Shown: positions 18,398 through 28,145 of the stretch, one piece after another | Layout of the letters: the number at the start of each line of letters is the position of its first letter | How positions within the stretch are numbered: position 1 is the stretch's first letter | Assembly (NCBI RefSeq): GCF_004297185.1 | Contig: NZ_PGCL01000001.1 | Span: forward strand, 186,001-250,000 | DNA from: Methanofollis fontis | GTDB taxonomy: Archaea; Halobacteriota; Methanomicrobia; Methanomicrobiales; Methanofollaceae | DNA length: 64,000 nt | Direction: 5' to 3' | Translations under genes and position numbers: made by a program | The notes under the pieces: model-generated | Seen by the model: the letters and a program-made list of their open reading frames with translations, nothing else | The model's database searches: none | What the model was told of the DNA's origin: nothing

Positions 18398-19743
18398 ACC
18401 CCGAGCACCTCCCTCACCCGTTCAGGCAGGACTCTGATCCCGGTCATATGGAGGAACTGTTCGCACGCCTGATACACAAACATCCCGGTGCCTGAGATTG
18501 TCCGGCACCCCAGTTCGGCCGCTATGCGGAGGAGCGGGGTTTCAGCCGGGGTGTAGACGAGGTCAAAGACCGTCATCGAAGGCAGGAGATCGGCGGGCGA
18601 GAGCAGGGAGCCGGGATCCCCGCCCATACCCACCGGTGTGGCGTGGATGACGATTTCGGGCCGAATCACCCCGAACTGCTGCATCGTCCCGGAATCACAG
18701 CCAAACCGCCCGGCCAGCGCCCGCGACTGTTCCGGATTGCGGGCGAGCACCGTCACCTCGCAGCCAAGGTCGAGCAGGGCATAGACAGCGGCGGCAGCGG
18801 CACCACCCGCCCCCAGGACGACCGCCCGCCCCGGCAATACCCCATCCAGGGGGCGGCGGACACCGATCCAGTCGGTGTTCGAGGCACAGCACATCCCGCA
18901 CCTGATGAGAAGGGTGTTTGCAGCCCCGATCGCCTCCGCATGGGGGTCGGCCCGATCGGCAGCGTTGAGGGCCGACTCCTTGTGCGGGATGGTGACCGAG
19001 AGCCCCTGCACCCCGAGCCCGACCGCCGCATCCAGGACGGCGGAGAAATCCGGGTGGCCAAGGAAGGTGTAATGCGCATCCAGCCCGCACTCGGCAAACA
19101 AGGCGTTCCAGAGCTCTGGGCTCCGGCTGTGCAGCACCGGATGGCCAGCGATGCCAAAGAGACGGGTGGGGGCAGGGAGGGAGGCGAGGCGCTTCCTCTC
19201 CCCCGACGGCATCGAAAAACCATCCAGGATCCCGATGTCCCTGCCGGATGCATGGAGGTGATCGAGCACCGCCTCTGCCACCTCGCCCGGGGTGAGGGCG
19301 GCAGTATCGACACAGATGTCGGCCGCACGGAGATAATATGGGCGACGAATGGCGAGCACCTCCCGGATCTCCTCGTCGGGTGGCAGGGCGGTGAGTGGCG
19401 GGCGGTCAGACCCGGCGATCCTTTCGGCGATCACGGATGCCGGTGCATGGAGCAGCACCACCGTCCCCCCCCGCCGGAGCGCGGCCACATTTGCCGGGTC
19501 CAGGACCGCCCCGCCGCCGGTGCTGATCACCCCTTCCTCATCGGCGAGACCGGCGATCACCGAGCGCTCTATTGCCCGGAAGGCCTCTTCCCCGAGACGC
19601 TCGAAGATCGCCGGTATCGACATCCCGGCCCGCCCCTCGGTGGCGGCGTCGGTGTCGATGAAGGGAAGACCGAGACGGCGGGCAAGAAGACGCCCGACAA
19701 CCGTTTTTCCGGTGCCCCGGTAACCAATCAGCACGACCTTCAT
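18394..19743 (-). CDS. aroKE: Shikimate kinase (bacterial NMP-kinase type) fused to shikimate dehydrogenase
   Basis: 449 aa bifunctional protein. Residues 1-175 are a P-loop shikimate kinase: Walker A GYRGTGKT (7-14), FIDTD (substrate/Mg site) and STGGGAVL. From about residue 190 a shikimate dehydrogenase begins: [11 protein letters not shown], catalytic Lys in SVTIPHKE and the NADP-binding GAGGAAAAA. Most archaea use an unrelated GHMP-family shikimate kinase, so the bacterial-type domain suggests acquisition from bacteria. The dehydrogenase acts before the kinase in the pathway, so fused order does not follow reaction order. ATGA overlaps couple it to aroA upstream and aroC downstream. Confidence 0.95.
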
Positions 19744-21008
19744 AGCAGTCCCACCCCCACAAGCGCCTCCCAGAAACCGGGATAGGACTTTTCGACGCAC
19801 CCCGCATCCCGGACAACGACACCCCCGGCACCGAGTCCGATCACGGCGGCGCTCATCGCCGTCCGGTGATCATTCTCTGGATCGACGATCAGGGGCCTGA
19901 GGGGGCCGGGACGGATGGTGAGGCGGTCACCCTCCACCGTCACCCCGGCCCCGGCGGCGGTGAGCACGCGCCGGATCGCCTCCAGACGGTCGCTCTCCTT
20001 GTACCTGAGGTGGGCGACCCCGGTGATCGTGGTCGATCCGCGGGCGAACGCCGCCACGGCCGCCACCGTCTGGACGATGTCGGGGGCGGAGGCCATCCCC
20101 ACCTCGATCCCCTCCAGGGGCCCGTCGCGCTCGACCGTGAGGAGGTCGCCGTTCCAGCGCACCCGGCACCCCATTGCCGAGAGGATCTCAGGGAAGATCC
20201 GGTCACCCTGCGCCGAGGTGCGCTCCAGCCCGCCGACGCTCACCCGTCCACCGCAGACGGCGGCGATCGCACAGAGATAGGAGGCCGAGGACCAGTCGCC
20301 CTCGACGGTGTAGTCCCGGCCCCGATAGACCCCTTCCGGCACCACGAACCATTCCGAACCGACCCTGAAGGGACGGACGCCGAAATCTTCCATCGTGCGG
20401 AGCGTGAGGTCGATATAGGGGCGGGAGACCGGCGGGGTGCGCATGCAGACGGCGAGGGTGCGGCGGGCATAGGGCCCGGCGATGAGCAGGGAGGAGAGGA
20501 ACTGGCTGCTCATGCCGCCCTCCAAGTTGACCACACCCCCACGGAGGGGGCCCTGCACCTCAACCGGCGGATAGCCCTCCTGAACCGGATAGCGGACCCG
20601 CCCCCCCGCCTGCACCAGGGCGTCGCCGAGCGGGCCGAAGGGGCGCTGCTGCATGCGGGCATCGCCGGTCAGACAGACCGGATGCGGGGCGAGGAGGGAG
20701 ACTCCAGCCATGATCCGCAGGGTGGTGCCCGAGTTGCCGAGGGAGAGGCGCACCGGACCCCCTGTGTCGGGCAGGGCACCGGCGCAGCCCTGCAGGCGCA
20801 CGCTCTCCTCCTCCTGCACCAGGTCAATCCCCAGGGAGCGGAGGGCGGCGGCGGTCAGACGGGTGTCGGCGGCACGGAGCGGGCGGCGGATCACCGACTC
20901 GCCCTCCGCAAGGGCGGCGATCATGAGGGCGCGGTGGGTGACGCTCTTTGAGGGGGGGGCGGTGAAGCGGAGGTCCACCTCCTGCCGCCGTTCGATCCTC
21001 ACCTCCAC
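19740..21008 (-). CDS. aroA: 5-enolpyruvylshikimate-3-phosphate synthase
   Basis: 422 aa. Diagnostic motifs: PPSKSVTHRAL (phosphate/shikimate binding), LGNSGTTLR, and the RYKESDR loop near the C-terminus. It joins shikimate-3-phosphate and PEP. The GTG at 21008 is chosen because GGAGGT lies six bases ahead and there is a short overlap with the end of pheA; the longer upstream frame is glycine-rich and unconserved. ATGA overlap with aroKE. Confidence 0.96.
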   Translation of the reverse strand: MEVRIERRQEVDLRFTAPPSKSVTHRALMIAALAEGESVIRRPLRAADTRLTAAALRSLGIDLVQEEESVRLQGCAGALPDTGGPVRLSLGNSGTTLRIMAGVSLLAPHPVCLTGDARMQQRPFGPLGDALVQAGGRVRYPVQEGYPPVEVQGPLRGGVVNLEGGMSSQFLSSLLIAGPYARRTLAVCMRTPPVSRPYIDLTLRTMEDFGVRPFRVGSEWFVVPEGVYRGRDYTVEGDWSSASYLCAIAAVCGGRVSVGGLERTSAQGDRIFPEILSAMGCRVRWNGDLLTVERDGPLEGIEVGMASAPDIVQTVAAVAAFARGSTTITGVAHLRYKESDRLEAIRRVLTAAGAGVTVEGDRLTIRPGPLRPLIVDPENDHRTAMSAAVIGLGAGGVVVRDAGCVEKSYPGFWEALVGVGLL

Positions 21009-21793
21009 TCCCCCACCTCCAGACGCGGATAGCAGCCAAACCATTGTACAGCCGCCAGACCATCGAGCTCAGCCAGGGCACCCTCCCAGGCGGGAGAGGC
21101 ATGACCGTCCACAAAGAATACATACCGCCCCATCCCCCGTCTGGCTGGCCGGGACTCGATCCTGGTGAGGTTGATCGAGCGCCGGGCAAACACCGCCAGC
21201 ATCTCGGCGAGCAGCCCGACGCGGTCGGTCCGCGGATCGATGAGCACCGAACACTTGACGGCGTCTTCGCCCGCATAGCGTTGCCGGGAAATGACCACAA
21301 AGCGCGTGGTGTTGCCAGCGGCGTCCTGCACGTCGGACTCCAGGACCGGGACGCCGGCGCGTTCCGCCGCAGCCAGCGTGGTGATCGCCGCCGCCGTTCC
21401 ATCCGGCCTCACCGCACGGGCACTTGCGGCGTTCGAGGGCGTATGGATCACCGGCACCCCCAGAGCGTCGGCCAGACGGCTGCACTGCTCGTGGGCCTGC
21501 GGATGGGCATGGAGCTCGGTGATCGCCTCCCGTCCCACAAAGGATGCGAGATGGTGGCGGACCGGCACATACACCTCGGCGGTGATGAAGAGGGGATGGC
21601 GCATCAGGGCGTCGAGCACCGCCCCCACCCCACCTGCCTCACTGTTCTCGATAGGAACGACACCATCGCCCCCTCCAGCAGCGACATGGGCGAAGACGGC
21701 GGCGATGGTGGGGAGGAGGACGACCTCGTCGGCAAGACGGGAGGCGATGGCGTGGCTCACCGTCCCCTCGGGCCCCAGGGCCGCAAGCCTCAT
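20999..21793 (-). CDS. pheA: Prephenate dehydratase with ACT domain
   Basis: 264 aa monofunctional enzyme. The catalytic domain (1-180) starts LGPEGTVSH and contains the NTTRF signature with the catalytic Thr; PIENSEAGGV is also present. The C-terminal ACT domain has INLTRIESRPAR, the ESRP motif that binds Phe for feedback inhibition. Protein-level feedback by Phe is therefore likely. ATG 21793 overlaps the tyrA stop (ATGA). Confidence 0.95.
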   Translation of the reverse strand: MRLAALGPEGTVSHAIASRLADEVVLLPTIAAVFAHVAAGGGDGVVPIENSEAGGVGAVLDALMRHPLFITAEVYVPVRHHLASFVGREAITELHAHPQAHEQCSRLADALGVPVIHTPSNAASARAVRPDGTAAAITTLAAAERAGVPVLESDVQDAAGNTTRFVVISRQRYAGEDAVKCSVLIDPRTDRVGLLAEMLAVFARRSINLTRIESRPARRGMGRYVFFVDGHASPAWEGALAELDGLAAVQWFGCYPRLEVGEWR

Positions 21794-22614
21794 CGTTCGG
21801 AGAGACACCGCACCAGCACCTCCGAGTCCTCCGTCGCCTGTGGGATATAGCCGGAGAAATACCGGGCATCGGCCGCAAAGATCTCCGTGAACGCCTGTTC
21901 GTCCCCATCGACGACCGCGCGTGAGAGTTCGACCGCCGCGTCCGAGAAAGCGGCGAGCACCTCCGGCACCGCCGGGTTCTCCTGCAGGATAGGACCGTAG
22001 AGGTCCGGATCCTGCCCCAGGATCCGCCCGACGAGCGCCGTCTCGATCCGGTAGACCGGGCTGGTGGCAGAGAGCAGGGCATCGAGATCGATCCCCAGGC
22101 GGCGGATCGTCCCTGCCACCGTCAGGGTCGCATAATGGGTGAGGGCCTGCACCACCGCCATCAAACGGTCGTGCTCCAGGGGGTCCATCTCCGTGATCTG
22201 TGCCCCTTCGGCCCTGAAGATGCCGAGCACCTCTTCCTGGCGCTCAGGATCGATCCGGGCCGGGCAGGCGATGATCGTCTGCCCCCGCAGGGATGCGACC
22301 GACGGACCGAACATCGGGTGGAGACCGAGCACTGCCGCCTCCGTCTCGAGCATCGCCGCTACCGGCACCGCCTTCAGGGAGGTGAGGTCGCAGAGGCTCT
22401 GCTCGGGGCGGAGGAGGGGTGCGATCTCTCGGATCACCGCCGCCGTGGCCCGGATGGGGACGGAAACGACCACAAGGTCGCAGTGCTCCGCAATCCATGC
22501 ATTCGTCACGGCGGTATGGCGGCCCGAGACCGAGACCTCATGCCCGGCGGCGGCGAAGGTGCGGGCAAAAAACGAGCCCATACCCCCTGTGCCACCGATG
22601 ATCCCGATATGCAT
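21790..22614 (-). CDS. tyrA: Prephenate dehydrogenase
   Basis: 274 aa. An N-terminal Rossmann motif GIIGGTGGMGSFFA binds NAD(P), followed by LTSLKA and the catalytic-His region GLHPMFGP. It oxidatively decarboxylates prephenate to 4-hydroxyphenylpyruvate. There is no visible ACT domain, unlike PheA next door. One base separates it from the stop of the upstream DHQ synthase gene. Confidence 0.95.
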   Translation of the reverse strand: MHIGIIGGTGGMGSFFARTFAAAGHEVSVSGRHTAVTNAWIAEHCDLVVVSVPIRATAAVIREIAPLLRPEQSLCDLTSLKAVPVAAMLETEAAVLGLHPMFGPSVASLRGQTIIACPARIDPERQEEVLGIFRAEGAQITEMDPLEHDRLMAVVQALTHYATLTVAGTIRRLGIDLDALLSATSPVYRIETALVGRILGQDPDLYGPILQENPAVPEVLAAFSDAAVELSRAVVDGDEQAFTEIFAADARYFSGYIPQATEDSEVLVRCLSER

Positions 22615-22615
22615 C

Positions 22616-23602
22616 TCAGGTCTCCGTGATCGTCTCGCCGACGGCCATCCCGAAGTGGCGGCCCTTCTCCATCGAGACCCCCAGCACCCGGTCCCCGACC
22701 GATAGTGCGGCCACCGAGAGCGGCCCGGACTCGCCCATCAGCCTGACAGTCTCGGCGTTCTGGAGCACCAGCCCGGCCTTCGCACCGCCGCTCTCGGCCT
22801 CGACCAGCAGCAGGGGACGGCGTTCGATCTTCACCCGACCGACCGCCGCCGTCTCCCCGGTGCCGTCGGCACCGATCACCAGCACGCTGTTGCCCGCCCG
22901 CACCTCGGAGAGATAAGAGGTCCGCCCGTCCGGGCCGAGCAGGTAGGCGTGGACCGCCCCGGCGTTCACCCGGAACGGGCGGGGGGCGACATAGGGGTTC
23001 TCGGCCGTCTCGGCAAGCACGAGCAGGAACCCGGATGAGGTGTTGCCGACGAGCATCCCCTCCCCTTCGGCCAGGAGGGAGCAGGTATCGATGCACGCCC
23101 GGTCGCCCATGCCGACCGGCACAATCCTGGTGACGGTGAAGGGGGCCAGAGCGTATCGCCCTCCCACATCCCGCAGGACGGCGGCGACCTCCCCGATCTG
23201 CAGGGGATCGGCGGTCCTGAGCAGCACCCCGGCAACACCCCGCTCCAGGATGCCGAGGGCGAGCCGCGCCTCATCGGCGTCTGAGACGACGGCGATCACC
23301 CGGTCGGGGAAGGCGGCGACGAGATTTTCAAGGGGGATCACCGTCCAGTCCGTGGTGGAGACGACGAGCAGGGCGTCGCCGGCGTCCGGGAGGGGCGAAT
23401 CCGGCGTCACCTCGGCAAACACAACATCGCGCTCAGGCACCAGGTCACCGTCCGGCGCCACCGTAGCGATCCGCCCGAGGGCGCGGGCATCGGCGGCACG
23501 GTCCGCCACCAGGGCATCGGCCCCTGCCTCGATCGCCGCCGTGGCGATCTCCGTGCTCCAGGGGCGCACGTCCACCCAGAAGCGCTTCGAAGTCCCGGTC
23601 AT
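22616..23602 (-). CDS. aroB': 3-dehydroquinate synthase II
   Basis: 328 aa archaeal enzyme unrelated to bacterial AroB. It starts KRFWVDVRPW and contains DWTVIPLENLVA, VPVGMGDRACIDTC, GMLVGNTSSGF and RPFRVNAGAVHAY, typical of DHQ synthase II. It uses NAD+ for oxidative deamination and cyclisation of 2-amino-3,7-dideoxy-D-threo-hept-6-ulosonate to 3-dehydroquinate. The start at 23602 overlaps the upstream stop (ATGA), which confirms it over the longer open frame. Confidence 0.95.
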   Translation of the reverse strand: MTGTSKRFWVDVRPWSTEIATAAIEAGADALVADRAADARALGRIATVAPDGDLVPERDVVFAEVTPDSPLPDAGDALLVVSTTDWTVIPLENLVAAFPDRVIAVVSDADEARLALGILERGVAGVLLRTADPLQIGEVAAVLRDVGGRYALAPFTVTRIVPVGMGDRACIDTCSLLAEGEGMLVGNTSSGFLLVLAETAENPYVAPRPFRVNAGAVHAYLLGPDGRTSYLSEVRAGNSVLVIGADGTGETAAVGRVKIERRPLLLVEAESGGAKAGLVLQNAETVRLMGESGPLSVAALSVGDRVLGVSMEKGRHFGMAVGETITET

Positions 23603-24381
23603 GCCTCCTCCAGCGCCCGGGCGGGATCGGTCTTCTCGTGGACGACGGCGCAGAGGGCGCGGACGAACAAACGGGGGTCCTCCCGCTGGAAGGCGTTCCT
23701 CCCGATGCAGACACCCGCCGCACCGGCCGAAACGGCATCCCTGATGGCGTTCAGGGTGGCGAGATCGCCCGCCTTTTCCCCGCCGGCGATGAGCACCGGC
23801 ACCGAGCATGCAGCGCAGATCTCGGCGAACGACGCCGGATCGCCGGTGTAGTTCGTCTTGATCAGGTCGGCCCCGATCTCCTCGGCCACCCGCACGCAGT
23901 GACCGACGGCCACCGGAGAGCGCGGGTCGATGCCGGTGCCCCGCGGGTAGATCATGATCAGGAGCGGCATGCCCCGGCGGGTGCACTCCCGAGAGACCTC
24001 GCCGGCGGCCTCGATCATCCGCGACTCGTTGGGCGCCCCCAGGTTGATGTGGATCGAGACGGCATCAGCACCCAGGGCGACCGCCTCCTCCACGGTGCAG
24101 ACGAGCACCTTGTCGTCCGGGTCCGGGTTGAGGGAGGTGGAGGCCGAGAGATGGACGATGAGCCCGATATCCCGCCCGCTCCCGCGGTGACCCGCCTTCA
24201 CCATGCCCTTGTGCATGACGATGGCGTTCGCCCCCCCATCGGAAACGGCGGCCACCGCCTCGGGCATTCTCCGGAGTCCCTCGATCTGCCCCAGAGTGAA
24301 GCCATGGTCCATCGGGACGATGACCGTCCTGCCCGTATTCCGGTCCATGATCCGTTCCAGTCTGATCGCCTTGCCGATCAT
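23599..24381 (-). CDS. ADH synthase/class I aldolase family protein, paralog 2
   Basis: 260 aa TIM-barrel aldolase. It shares PMDHG, HLSAST, MIYPRG and the Schiff-base Lys in [10 protein letters not shown] with archaeal 2-amino-3,7-dideoxy-D-threo-hept-6-ulosonate synthase (transaldolase condensing L-aspartate semialdehyde with 6-deoxy-5-ketofructose-1-phosphate). It lies in tandem with a close paralog and all catalytic positions are kept in both. One copy may make the deoxyketofructose phosphate precursor while the other makes ADH, or both may be ADH synthases. ATGA overlaps on both sides. Confidence 0.85.
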
Positions 24382-25166
24382 TTCACCATCTCCAGTGCCT
24401 CTTCCGCCGTCCGCCCCCCGTGCACGATCGCCGCCGCCGCCCGAAGGAAGCGGTCGGGGTGCCGGTGCTGGAAGGCATTGCGCCCGATGGATAGGCCGGC
24501 GGCACCCCCCTCCATCGCCCCTTCGATGAGCTGGAGCGTCGAGAGGTCTTCGGTCTTCGATCCGCCGGCCACGACCACCGGCACCGGGCATCCCCGCGTC
24601 ACCTCACGGAACGAGTCCGGGTCGCCGGTGTAGACAGTCTTGATGATGTCGGCCCCGAGTTCGGCACCGGCGCGGGCGGCGAGGCAGACCGCCTCTACAT
24701 CCTTCTCGTCCGGGATCTTCGCACCGCGGGGGTACATCATCGCAAGCAGGGGCATCCCCCAGTCCATGCACTCCACCGCCACCTGCCCGAGATCCTCGAG
24801 CATCCGGGCCTCCGAACCGGCGCCGATGTTGATATGCACCGAAACGGCGTCGGCCCCCATCTTGAGGGCGTTGGTGACGGTGTTCACGATCACTTTCTCG
24901 TTCGGGTCCGGCCCGAGGGTCGTGGAGGCCGAGAGGTGGAGGATGAGCCCGATGTCCCGCCCGCTCTGCCGGTGGCCGTAGAGGGCGAGTCCGAGATGAC
25001 CGAGCACGGCGTTCGCTCCCCCGTCGGCAACCGCATCCACCGTCCGTCCCATGTCGATGAGCCCGGGCATGGGCCCTGCCGTCACACCGTGATCCATCGG
25101 TACGATGATCGTCTTTCCGGTGTTCCGGTCCATGATACGTTCCATCCTGATCTGTTTTCCTCTCAT
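24378..25166 (-). CDS. ADH synthase/class I aldolase family protein, paralog 1 (first gene of aromatic operon)
   Basis: 262 aa, closely similar to the next gene: PMDHG, HLSAST, MMYPRG and Schiff-base Lys in [10 protein letters not shown]. It probably catalyses the committed first step of the archaeal shikimate route. The ATG at 25166 has GGGGAGGAG eight to nine bases upstream; the Shine-Dalgarno overlaps the 3' arm of a hairpin (25178-25203). Upstream lie a Phe/Tyr-rich mini-ORF and a second mini-ORF, described separately, which may regulate this gene and hence the operon. Confidence 0.87.
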
Positions 25167-25177
25167 GATCAACTCCT

Positions 25178-25203
25178 CCCCGCCGGCATGACATACTGCG
25201 GGG
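25178..25203 (-). promoter_or_regulatory. Hairpin overlapping the Shine-Dalgarno of the aromatic operon
   Basis: On the coding (minus) strand CCCCGC pairs with GCGGGG across a 14-nt loop. The 3' arm runs directly into the GGGGAGGAG Shine-Dalgarno of the first aromatic gene, so folding would shield part of it. The 5' arm begins four bases after the stop codon of the Phe/Tyr-rich mini-ORF, within reach of a ribosome terminating there. Only the pairing is seen; regulation is inferred. Confidence 0.4.
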
Positions 25204-25212
25204 ACTTTTAAA
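25204..25212 (-). promoter_or_regulatory. Candidate proximal TATA box of the aromatic operon
   Basis: Coding-strand TCTTTTAAA about 40 bp before the first structural ATG. If used, the transcript would start near 25180 and carry only a short untranslated region with the Shine-Dalgarno, and the mini-ORFs upstream would not be transcribed with the operon. It overlaps the stop codon of the Phe/Tyr mini-ORF. Confidence 0.35.
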
Positions 25213-25252
25213 AGAGATAAAAATATCCAAAAAAGAAGGCGTACATCGCCAT
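25208..25252 (-). CDS. Candidate Phe/Tyr-rich leader peptide
   Basis: A 14-codon frame reading [14 protein letters not shown] then TAA, ending 41 nt before the first gene of the Phe/Tyr pathway operon. Nine of fourteen residues are Phe or Tyr, the end products of the operon. GGAG lies two bases before the first ATG and eight before the second (25246). It is preceded by the perfect stem CGCTCC/GGAGCG, which includes that GGAG, and followed by the hairpin shielding the operon's Shine-Dalgarno. The arrangement resembles bacterial attenuator leaders. The caveat is that T-rich promoter DNA codes for Phe/Tyr by chance, and a proximal TATA box overlaps this frame. Confidence 0.4.
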
Positions 25253-25265
25253 CGCTCCGGGAGCG
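25253..25265 (-). promoter_or_regulatory. Perfect stem around the leader Shine-Dalgarno
   Basis: Coding-strand CGCTCC C GGAGCG, a 6-bp perfect inverted repeat with a single-base centre (too tight to close fully, so the inner pair would open). GGAG inside it is the only Shine-Dalgarno-like motif for the Phe/Tyr mini-ORF. The CTCCC can alternatively pair with the GGGAG of the operon's own Shine-Dalgarno, offering a competing fold. Confidence 0.3.
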
Positions 25266-25295
25266 ACGGTCAGAGAACCGATGTCTGTGTGACGA

Positions 25296-25352
25296 TCAGC
25301 GGCGCTGGTGAGGATAAAGGCATTCACCGGCGAAAAAACATTCACCACACAT
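25296..25352 (-). CDS. Candidate leaderless mini-ORF upstream of aromatic operon
   Basis: An 18-codon frame MCGECFFAGECLYPHQRR followed by TGA. Its ATG lies about 28 bp from the centre of a TATA box at 25376-25388, where this genome's leaderless genes place their start codon. It contains a Phe-Phe and a Tyr and three cysteines. It would be the first thing translated on a transcript running into the aromatic operon. No family is recognisable; it may be a chance frame. Confidence 0.25.
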   Translation of the reverse strand: MCGECFFAGECLYPHQRR

Positions 25353-25375
25353 TACCTGAAGGGTGGCACTCCCCC

Positions 25376-25388
25376 CTATATAATAGGT
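25376..25388 (-). promoter_or_regulatory. Distal TATA box upstream of aromatic operon leader
   Basis: Coding-strand CCTATTATATAGG, nearly palindromic. It is the best TATA match in the 304-bp gap between 25167 and 25470. Read on the minus strand it predicts a start near 25354 and a leader of about 190 nt before the first aromatic gene. Read on the plus strand it would face no gene. Confidence 0.4.
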
Positions 25389-25470
25389 GTGGAACAGAGG
25401 GGGAGAACCCCGCCGACCCCACAGAACGGTGGAAGGGAAATCCGGAACAGGGCCGACGGAATGATGTGTT

Positions 25471-26295
25471 TCACCGCTTTGCCACAAAGGCGTTCCTGAC
25501 CAGATCGTCGCCAAAGGCGGGAGAAACTGTCCCGTCTTTCGCATACCGGTAGAGGGCGGTGACAAAGATGCCGTGCAGACTCCCGTAGACCACACCGAGG
25601 ACCGCCGTCCCGATGATGGCCAGCACAAACAATCCTGCCGTGAGGACGATATTCCCCAGGACGAGGCTTGCGAAGGCGAGGACAAACAGCAGAATGCCCG
25701 GGAGGACCAGGAGGCCCAGACCGCCGTTTCCTATGACGTTTTCGCCCCACGTTCCCTTGAAGAGACGCCAGGACTCCCCGATGGCGTCGGCGACACCCTT
25801 CTGCTCGAAGACCATCACCGGGATCACGAACAGGGTCGCAAGGCTCCAGACACCGCCGACGATGGCGATGGCAATTTTTCCCAGGAGACCGGAACGTTCT
25901 GCGGCCAGACGGAGCACCAGCCCGACCGTGGCGGCGACCAGGGCCCAGGAGAGGATCCGCCCGATGTTTGCCCATGCAACCGAAAGCCCGTCCCGCACCG
26001 TCGGGTCGCCGCCCCTGAGTCTGATATCGGCGCAGGCGATGATGCCGGTGTTGAAGAAGATGGCGACCGAGAAGGTGATGAAGTAAAAAATGGCCAGGAG
26101 AACGACCTGTAACACCCATGAGGACGCCGCCTGCATCAGCAGACCGGAGACGAAGATCGGCACGATGAACGAGGCGACCAGGATGATCGTGGCGATTGCG
26201 GAGAGGACCGGGAAGAGGAGGAGTTCCCGGTCCTGTTTCAGGACCGAAAGCGAGGTTTTGATGAGCGCAATGCTGCGCCCGAAGGTGCCTGCCAT
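25471..26295 (-). CDS. DUF6159-like integral membrane protein
   Basis: 274 aa with about six hydrophobic segments, running from RSIALIKTSLSVLKQDREL at the N-terminus to a short soluble tail. The pattern (a short amphipathic start, then paired membrane segments, with ESWRLFKGTWG between the middle pairs) matches DUF6159/glycerophosphodiester phosphodiesterase membrane-domain-like proteins found across prokaryotes. The start at 26295 excludes 13 upstream hydrophobic residues. Function is unknown. It stands alone between the aromatic leader and the radical SAM gene. Confidence 0.65.
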   Translation of the reverse strand: MAGTFGRSIALIKTSLSVLKQDRELLLFPVLSAIATIILVASFIVPIFVSGLLMQAASSWVLQVVLLAIFYFITFSVAIFFNTGIIACADIRLRGGDPTVRDGLSVAWANIGRILSWALVAATVGLVLRLAAERSGLLGKIAIAIVGGVWSLATLFVIPVMVFEQKGVADAIGESWRLFKGTWGENVIGNGGLGLLVLPGILLFVLAFASLVLGNIVLTAGLFVLAIIGTAVLGVVYGSLHGIFVTALYRYAKDGTVSPAFGDDLVRNAFVAKR

Positions 26296-26396
26296 ATACA
26301 GGGATGCGGGCGAAACGGATAAAAACGGGATCATTTTGATCGGGAACAGGGTTTTCCAGGCGTCCGGATCACAGGGAGCGGAGAGGTGTGCCCCCC

Positions 26397-28145
26397 TTAC
26401 TTCACGGTCGTGCCCCGGAAGGAACGGTTATGGTTCACCGCCTCCGGATCGACCCCGTAGAAGCGGCGGTAGAACGCCCGCTCCTCCTCATCCAGGTCGA
26501 AGGCGCAGTGATCGGGGTGGAGAGTGGCGGCGAGCGCCATCAGCCCGAGCACCCAGCGTGGACTGCCGAAATCCCATCCCGGCGGCATCGTATACACGGC
26601 ACCGGTGCGGACAGCATCCACGATCAGACCCCCCTCATGGCAGAACCGCAGGTAATCCTCGGCAGGAGCGGAGAGGAATCCGGAGACGATGATCACCTCC
26701 GGGTTCAGGGCGAGGAACTCCTCGGACGAGATGTTCACGCCCGGTTTTCCCTTCCTGGGGATCTGCCGGTTGACCACCGTCGCCCCGGCGGTCCCGGCAA
26801 GACAGACCTCGAACCTCCCGGCGTTCAGGGCGAACAGCGGGGTGCCCATCGAATAATAGAGACGGGGCCGGCGGTCGGATCCGGCCACGGCCACCATCAC
26901 CTGCTCCGTGCGATCAGAAAGCCATGCATGGAGCGCCGCCGCCTCCTCCTGCCTGCCGGCCCTGGCCCCGATATCATCCACAAGTCCCAGATAGCCGTCG
27001 ATCGTCTGGATGCGGTCGTGCATTCCGCCGATAAAATTCTCGTTCACGATCCCCGACCAGAACCCCTGCAGGGCAGCGCCGTCGCCGGCGCCCAGGCAGG
27101 CAAGGATCGCCCGCACCATCTCGAACGCCCGCGTGGTGCGGTAACCACCGAGCAGACCGGGCTCGTCGAAGCACTCCGTCCCGATGGCGCCGCGGACCGG
27201 GAGGCGCTCCCCGCAGGAGCAGACCGGGCTGGAGCGTGCCCACACTGTCCTGGCCCCCATCGGCCCATAAAACTCCCGCCCGATGATCCGCTCGCCGCAG
27301 CGCGGGCAGAGGGTGTCGAGACAGGGCGTCCCGGGCGAGTTGAAGAGATAGACGAACGGCAGGATCTCCCGCGCCCGCCGGCAGAGGTCCTCCGATTCCA
27401 GGACCGTGGGTTCGTCACCGGCGCATGCATCGCCGAAGGGCACAAACCGCATCACCTGCAGGGGGATCTCGGGAGAGATGCCGACAAGCCGACGCGCCGC
27501 ACCGAGCACCTCCTCCTCGCCGCCGCGGAGGTACATGACCGAGGCCTCGACATGCACACCGGCGGCGGCACAGAGCCCGATGTTCCTGAAGACCGGGGCC
27601 GCATGCGCCGCCCCGCAGGCGCGGTAGCGCCCGTCCGAGACCCCCTTCAGCCCCACATTCATATAGTCCAGATGGGGGATGAGGGCGTTGAGCGCCTCCT
27701 CCGTAAAATACCCGTTCGTCGAGCACCCCACCGAGAGTCCGGCCTCCTGCGCCGCACGGGCGAGTCTGAGAAAGGTGGGGAACGAGGCGGCGGGTTCGTT
27801 GAGGCAGAACACGATCCCCGAGCACCCCTCCGCCTCCGCCCGTTCAACCATCCCGGCAGGCGATCGGTGCCTGAGGGCGCCGGCGATTCCGTCCGGGTCC
27901 CCGATCAACACCTCGGAGATGCACCCCGGACAGGAGAAGGTGCAGCCGACCGTGCTCACCTGGAGCACCTTTGCCCGCGGGGAGTAGTGGAGGACCGGCA
28001 CCGTCTCGATCGAGACCGGCATCACGGTGAGATAGGCGTCCGGGTGGCGCTCGACGAACTCGCCACCCCTCACGGTATACATCCGGCAGATGCCGGTGCT
28101 GCCCTCAGGGATGGTGCAGCCCTGCTCGCAGATCCGGCACTTCAT
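26397..28145 (-). CDS. Radical SAM enzyme fused to a periplasmic-binding-protein-like domain
   Basis: 582 aa. Residues 1-20 hold a cysteine knuckle (C3, C6, C10, C20, with IPEGSTGIC) like that of AmmeMemoRadiSam/PflA-type activases. The radical SAM CxxxCxxC is C68-C72-C75. A zinc-ribbon-like pair (CPRCGER, CSCGER) lies near 275-315. From about residue 335 to the end the sequence resembles FepB/BtuF-type substrate-binding proteins: ISSEEFLALNPEVIIVSG, a GAVYTMPPGW strand and the terminal pattern VLGLMALAATLHPDH...FYRRFYG. There is no signal peptide, so the binding domain must act in the cytoplasm. It overlaps the methyltransferase gene by 4 bp (ATGA). Substrate is unknown; a cofactor, tetrapyrrole or metal chelate is a reasonable guess. 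Confidence 0.8.
   Translation of the reverse strand: MKCRICEQGCTIPEGSTGICRMYTVRGGEFVERHPDAYLTVMPVSIETVPVLHYSPRAKVLQVSTVGCTFSCPGCISEVLIGDPDGIAGALRHRSPAGMVERAEAEGCSGIVFCLNEPAASFPTFLRLARAAQEAGLSVGCSTNGYFTEEALNALIPHLDYMNVGLKGVSDGRYRACGAAHAAPVFRNIGLCAAAGVHVEASVMYLRGGEEEVLGAARRLVGISPEIPLQVMRFVPFGDACAGDEPTVLESEDLCRRAREILPFVYLFNSPGTPCLDTLCPRCGERIIGREFYGPMGARTVWARSSPVCSCGERLPVRGAIGTECFDEPGLLGGYRTTRAFEMVRAILACLGAGDGAALQGFWSGIVNENFIGGMHDRIQTIDGYLGLVDDIGARAGRQEEAAALHAWLSDRTEQVMVAVAGSDRRPRLYYSMGTPLFALNAGRFEVCLAGTAGATVVNRQIPRKGKPGVNISSEEFLALNPEVIIVSGFLSAPAEDYLRFCHEGGLIVDAVRTGAVYTMPPGWDFGSPRWVLGLMALAATLHPDHCAFDLDEEERAFYRRFYGVDPEAVNHNRSFRGTTVK

Follow-up and report, generated by a model that had tools for sequence, protein, structure and literature searches.

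A candidate starvation-responsive +1 frameshift leader upstream of the aromatic amino-acid operon in Methanomicrobiales

The 5′ region of the Phe/Tyr operon mRNA in the analysed stretch of Methanofollis fontis DNA (64,000 nucleotides; hereafter the window) is likely to be a leader that senses amino acids, involves a +1 frameshift and acts through a hairpin. Comparison of sequences strongly supports a leader that is translated in a conserved frame, would start at an ATG that we call ATG1, has Phe and Tyr codons at two defined sites and has its +1 phase tied to YUU-UAY. In the mechanism we propose, translation would begin at a leaderless AUG (25352) and pass through two tandem cassettes. With Phe-tRNA and Tyr-tRNA plentiful, the ribosome would stay in the zero frame and terminate within about 18 codons, after which a hairpin over the Shine-Dalgarno (SD) sequence of the operon would remain closed. 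With Phe or Tyr scarce, the A site would fill slowly and the P-site tRNA on YUU would slip +1 onto UUU. The shifted ribosome would enter a Phe/Tyr(/Trp)-rich tail and slow or stall there, covering the 5′ arm of the hairpin, so that the SD sequence would be freed and the operon translated. We infer the starvation trigger, the stalling in the tail and the opening of the hairpin, the link to starvation being drawn from which amino acids the A-site codons specify and which the operon makes. With somewhat less assurance, we favour the broader reading that this is a hungry-codon +1 frameshifting sensor, with separate tandem Phe and Tyr sites, controlling aromatic synthesis order-wide.

Family matches of six genes bear out the Phe/Tyr operon that a sequence-only reading of this DNA had placed downstream of a Phe/Tyr-rich mini-ORF, ATGGCGATGTACGCCTTCTTTTTTGGATATTTTTATCTCTTTTAA (Table 1). 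This 14-residue ORF lies at exactly 25208-25252 on the minus strand, as claimed, and its stop is indeed 41 nt from the ATG of the first operon gene (25166). Eight of its 14 codons, rather than the nine claimed, specify Phe or Tyr, and the GGAG noted before it is present but stands merely 2 nt from its first ATG. Alignment across the Methanomicrobiales found the frame, the stop and the aromatic-rich end kept. The mini-ORF ATG is not conserved in relatives and hence is not the real start, so that the idea of a complete leader initiated within the mini-ORF is rejected; moreover, the conserved open frame extends upstream. The central idea of that reading, an archaeal Phe/Tyr leader-peptide attenuator, thus gains strong comparative support across the order, while its start, frame and output have to be replaced.

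Table 1. Features of the operon and its leader in the window; counts refer to the 84 shift-type leaders described in the text.
Feature	Positions	Strand	Basis or remark
EPSP synthase	19740..21044	-	TIGR01356 above cut-off
Prephenate dehydratase with ACT domain, Phe branch	20999..21808	-	PF00800, PF01842
Prephenate dehydrogenase, Tyr branch	21790..22614	-	PF02153, PF20463
3-Dehydroquinate synthase II (DHQ synthase II)	22616..23602	-	PF01959, NF002627
Second 2-amino-3,7-dideoxy-D-threo-hept-6-ulosonate synthase paralogue	23599..24381	-	TIGR01949 above cut-off
First gene, 2-amino-3,7-dideoxy-D-threo-hept-6-ulosonate synthase	24378..25166	-	TIGR01949 above cut-off
SD sequence GGGGAGGAG of first operon gene	25173..25181	-	sequence
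Hairpin UCCCCGC...GCGGGGA	25177..25204	-	5′ arm 3 nt past leader stop; 3′ arm overlaps SD
Mini-ORF, C-terminal end (last 14 codons) of +1 segment	25208..25252	-	ATG not conserved
+1-frame segment, would be read after shift (35-residue peptide)	25208..25315	-	gap pattern in relatives
Zero-frame leader ORF from ATG1, MCGECFFAGECLYPHQRR, stop TGA	25296..25352	-	sequence; conserved in relatives
Cassette 2, GGTGAA TGC CTT TAT CCT	25311..25328	-	SD-like GGUGA, P codon CUU, Tyr UAU, then C
Cassette 2 CTT TAT C, proposed main +1 shift site	25313-25319	-	P codon YTT and A codon TAY in 84/84
Cassette 1, GGTGAA TGT TTT TTC GCC	25329..25346	-	SD-like GGUGA, slippery P codon UUU, Phe UUC
Cassette 1 TTT TTC	25332-25337	-	P codon YTT and A codon TTY in 84/84
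TATA box ATTATATA	25377..25384	-	32 nt upstream of ATG1

The leader start, ATG1, lies ~100 nt upstream of the mini-ORF. From it the zero frame reads ATG TGT GGT GAA TGT TTT TTC GCC GGT GAA TGC CTT TAT CCT CAC CAG CGC CGC TGA, ending in the window after 18 codons. The corresponding peptides in relatives follow the pattern M[CQR]G[EG]C[FL]FA..[CRG][FL]Y, elsewhere given as M[CQR]GECFFAGECFYxx followed by the stop. A TATA box with at least 6 of 8 matches to TTTATATA is found 30-35 nt upstream of ATG1 in 96% of 84 shift-type leaders, and 5% of control positions reach this score. An archaeal TATA box at 30-35 nt puts the start of transcription at the ATG or within a few bases of it. Because this spacing places the transcription start at or near ATG1, the operon mRNA is probably leaderless, or nearly so. 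The TTTTAAA box that the sequence-only reading had put forward as a possible promoter is ruled out, since the conserved TATA box belongs to ATG1.

A typical leader carries two 18-nt cassettes, GGTGAA TGY YTT TTY GCC (site 1) and GGTGAA TGY YTT TAY C (site 2). The P codon at both sites is TTT or CTT in all 84 shift-type leaders and never TTC or CTC; in the adjacent gene, T is the third base in merely 27% of YTY codons. Without exception, the A codon specifies Phe at site 1 (70 TTC, 14 TTT) and Tyr at site 2 (68 TAT, 16 TAC), and TAY is followed by C in 83 of 84. YTT is followed by T at both sites in every one of these leaders, such that the P-site tRNA could re-pair one base on, onto UUU, and slips at either site enter one common +1 frame. 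This frame is free of stops between ATG1 and TAY in all 84. The zero-frame stop comes at a median of 3 codons from TAY, as against 14.5 in the +2 frame. GUGA stands immediately ahead of the E-site codon at site 1 in 63 leaders and at site 2 in 77. The Tyr codon of the window's site 2 is preceded by Leu CUU rather than Phe UUU, a point that counts against the explanation we prefer.

Two other accounts of the cassettes were rejected. RNA-polymerase slippage at a T-run is unlikely, as several leaders carry only CTTTTC and CTTTAT there, and taking the GGTGAATG repeat as an operator only fails to explain why the phase is locked and why the Phe/Tyr codons vary at the wobble base. The leader L189 (Methanoregula) seems to contain an extra cassette (MQGECSIARECFFTRECLYLYD, then stop), which suggests that the cassette can duplicate.

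We compared regions upstream of the first operon gene fetched from relatives within the order Methanomicrobiales, including Methanoculleus, Methanoregula and Methanospirillum. The set comprised 110 leaders, 57 in a first set and 53 held out; L058 and L059, paralogous matches without a leader, were excluded, and the phase of L100 and L096 was settled by eye. Wherever both YTT-TTY (Phe) and YTT-TAY (Tyr) occur in the zero frame (84 leaders from 24 genera), the aromatic tail is in the +1 frame of ATG1, without exception. Where YTT-TAY is missing (26 leaders from 8 genera), the tail is in frame with ATG1 in 26 of 26, a count weaker than that of 84 in that the start of the in-frame leaders was picked partly by the TATA box. 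A tail in the +2 frame was found in none of the 110. The held-out leaders divide in the same way, 38 having the YTT-TAY site and a +1 tail and 15 having no site and an in-frame tail. The 26 leaders without the shift indicate that it is not essential to regulation, which counts against the preferred explanation; with the shift site gone and the frame restored, such lineages serve as natural controls.

The distance from the aromatic stop to ATG1 ranges from 130 to 214 nt and equals 1 mod 3, except in lineages with one continuous ORF. In the first 46 leaders the +1 segment has 16 distinct lengths (93-198 nt), and in four groups of relatives pairwise comparison gives 115 gaps in it, every one a multiple of 3; in the hairpin region after the stop, 32 of 244 pairwise gaps are. 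A fifth group, genus g17 with 3 sequences, has 3 of 7 gaps in the +1 segment that are multiples of 3. A tree built from the first enzyme requires about 5 changes to account for the in-frame state, 4 of them forced by well-supported branches, and sister genera can differ in leader state. In one paired comparison, the in-frame leader L023 lacks exactly one T of the CTTTATC of L021. A strong third-position bias was sought in the middle of the leader and was absent, the codon-position substitution bias there being weak; hence it is the frame, not the peptide, that appears to be kept. Taken together, these comparisons strongly support overlapping frames held in a fixed +1 phase and conserved in evolution.

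The aromatic-rich leader end is kept in relatives of 32 genera, and nearly every genome compared has an aromatic-rich open frame terminating just ahead of a hairpin. The tail peptides themselves are diverse, examples being YRYSGFGFYFWY, AAAFYRYFTRF and FFGYYRYFFAYFFSFGFWYRF, each followed by a stop. A strict core pattern is present in 26 of 61 genomes, once per genome and always beside the synthase gene, and a reversed control pattern had no matches in the same search. In 11 genomes from other groups within the phylum, the DNA ahead of relatives of the gene contained no leader of this kind, and neither did the other archaeal records checked.

The output predicted for the leader is also different from that of the pheL/trpL type put forward in the sequence-only reading, being translation attenuation by a hairpin over the SD sequence of the operon. 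The window hairpin has a predicted stability of -20 kcal/mol (z -2.2). It is followed by GGAGUUGAUCAUG, in which there is no U-run of an intrinsic terminator. Most genera have the same arrangement of hairpin and SD in different sequences, and in 17 genus representatives the two arms from one genome pair with each other better, on average, than do arms exchanged across genera (permutation p 0.0005). The predicted hairpins are individually modest, many z-scores being near -1, and the SD region is poorly paired in L031, L037, L044 and L050. A search of 24000-26500 against Rfam gave no family at gathering score, and so no riboswitch or T-box match. In AT-rich genera (L038, L039, L043, L045, L046, L048 and L049), a long hairpin follows the leader but lies far from the gene start and not over the SD; the output step there may be different, perhaps transcriptional.

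Several other explanations can be weighed against these observations. The +1 shift might be constitutive, a fixed fraction of ribosomes always shifting and only stalling in the tail sensing Phe/Tyr. This would sit well with the in-frame leaders of 8 genera, which regulate, if at all, without a shift, and efficient shifting at CUU ahead of a slow codon is known from other systems (PMC5009743). A constitutive shift would not, however, need A codons that specify Phe at the first site and Tyr at the second in 84 of 84 leaders with both synonyms in use, and we consider it unlikely. Frameshifting could be dispensed with altogether if the aromatic ORF were initiated separately at a +1-frame GTG or ATG inside the first ORF, giving two overlapping leader ORFs. 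All 84 leaders do have such a codon at cassette 1 (GGTG, CGTG or CATG), and the absence of +1-frame stops from ATG1 to TAY would suit it. Yet in most leaders only ~7 nt separate the codon from the inferred 5′ end, too few for an SD sequence. Moreover, internal initiation leaves unexplained the invariant YTT-TAY/TTY sites, the nearby zero-frame stop and the in-frame tail that goes with the same leaderless ATG1 in leaders that have lost YTT-TAY, which makes it distinctly improbable. If ribosomes terminated at the zero-frame stop and then re-initiated in the +1 frame, this would account for a stop near the shift site in nearly all leaders, but 40 of the 84 (12 genera) are without any ATG, GTG or TTG in the +1 segment. 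Because of these 40, re-initiation is very unlikely and mostly excluded.

The output, too, could be of another kind. Untranslated RNA might favour transcription termination, which shifted ribosomes would prevent, whether by attenuation or by polarity. Archaea show polarity on untranslated RNA, which counts for a transcriptional output, as do the AT-rich genera with a long hairpin far upstream of the gene start (L038, L039, L043, L046 and L048). Against it, the 3′ arm of the hairpin abuts or contains the SD sequence in the window and most genera, and the window has no U-run, so that we regard this alternative as doubtful. Finally, the coding strand of the region is T-rich, and T-rich promoter DNA might be read as Phe/Tyr codons by chance, a counter-argument that the sequence-only reading had itself raised. 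Frame, stop and aromatic content are nevertheless kept in 32 genera amid differing sequence and codon-sized gaps, and when the 304-nt intergenic region was resampled 5000 times under a first-order Markov model, just 2 resamples had at least 8 aromatic codons in the last 15. Chance is refuted by the comparison across relatives and its probability is negligible.

The preferred reading, a starvation-induced +1 shift that opens a hairpin over the SD sequence, shares features with several known systems. The bacterial prfB gene has a programmed +1 frameshift at CUU UGA C with an upstream SD-like element. The cassettes have the same order of parts, an SD-like element, one codon, YUU in the P site and a slow A codon followed by C, with re-pairing on UUU. 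The slow codon is a stop codon in prfB, whereas here it is Tyr or Phe, and regulation here would be in cis, via a leader, in an archaeon. Like the bacterial pheL and trpL attenuators, the leader is a short ORF rich in end-product codons directly upstream of a biosynthesis operon. It differs from them in being archaeal, in its leaderless start, in a tail reached by the +1 shift only, and in a hairpin that covers the SD sequence with the terminator U-run absent. The pheL leader of E. coli frameshifts too, which is regarded as incidental (PMC5009743). As in cat and erm translational attenuation, the leader ORF is followed immediately by an SD-covering hairpin to be opened by the leader ribosome; indeed, the 5′ arm of the SD-sequestering hairpin in the window is within reach of a ribosome at the leader end. 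Unlike in cat and erm, the signal here would be amino-acid supply rather than a drug, and a conserved shift site is part of the leader itself. Induction of ermC with telithromycin is brought about by frame-shifting ribosomes that unfold the mRNA (PMC5009743).

Hungry-codon frameshifting (Gallant and co-workers) resembles the proposal made here in that the shift occurs when the A-site codon is without charged tRNA, but it is known from laboratory starvation, unlike the natural leader described here. According to a major review of frameshifting, no natural trans-frame products with a starvation-specific function are known (PMC5009743), and a review of archaeal recoding lists only one case of -1 frameshifting reported in archaea (PMC8211752). 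The literature searched, which covered few subscription papers, held no description of this leader and no account of archaeal leader-peptide control of an amino-acid operon. The leader is a concrete candidate that makes natural hungry-codon frameshifting testable.

A His-rich leader was looked for before hisG and none was convincing. The leader tail in the window has zero Trp codons. The window genome has no TrpE family match (PF04715), and likewise several others of its genus, and g6; this absence suggests possible Trp auxotrophy. Within genus g1, Trp codons in the tail showed no clear link to the presence of trpE. At trpE loci of relatives (L142-L144 and L147-L159; for example, L149:1363), the start overlaps a near-invariant ATG CCG GTG GA[A/C] TGG in 16 of 19. 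The overlapping ORF reads MPV[E/D]W and reaches a stop within 0-15 codons, with TrpE in one fixed other frame in 16 of 16, and in L143, L144 and L159 TrpE is without ATG, GTG or TTG near its start. This arrangement may be a Trp-codon-dependent overlap or frameshift. Conventional aromatic leader-like ORFs are also found in bacteria (Desulfobacterales, Desulfobacteraceae or Deltaproteobacteria; L193, L201, L203 and L205-L208), upstream of a related synthase gene. Examples are MHHFTADGQWYYFYFYGRGLPVVR and MTDTYSGRNCYYSGYYYYFYATGLPKAC, each followed by a stop, and most have a GLP motif after the aromatic run.
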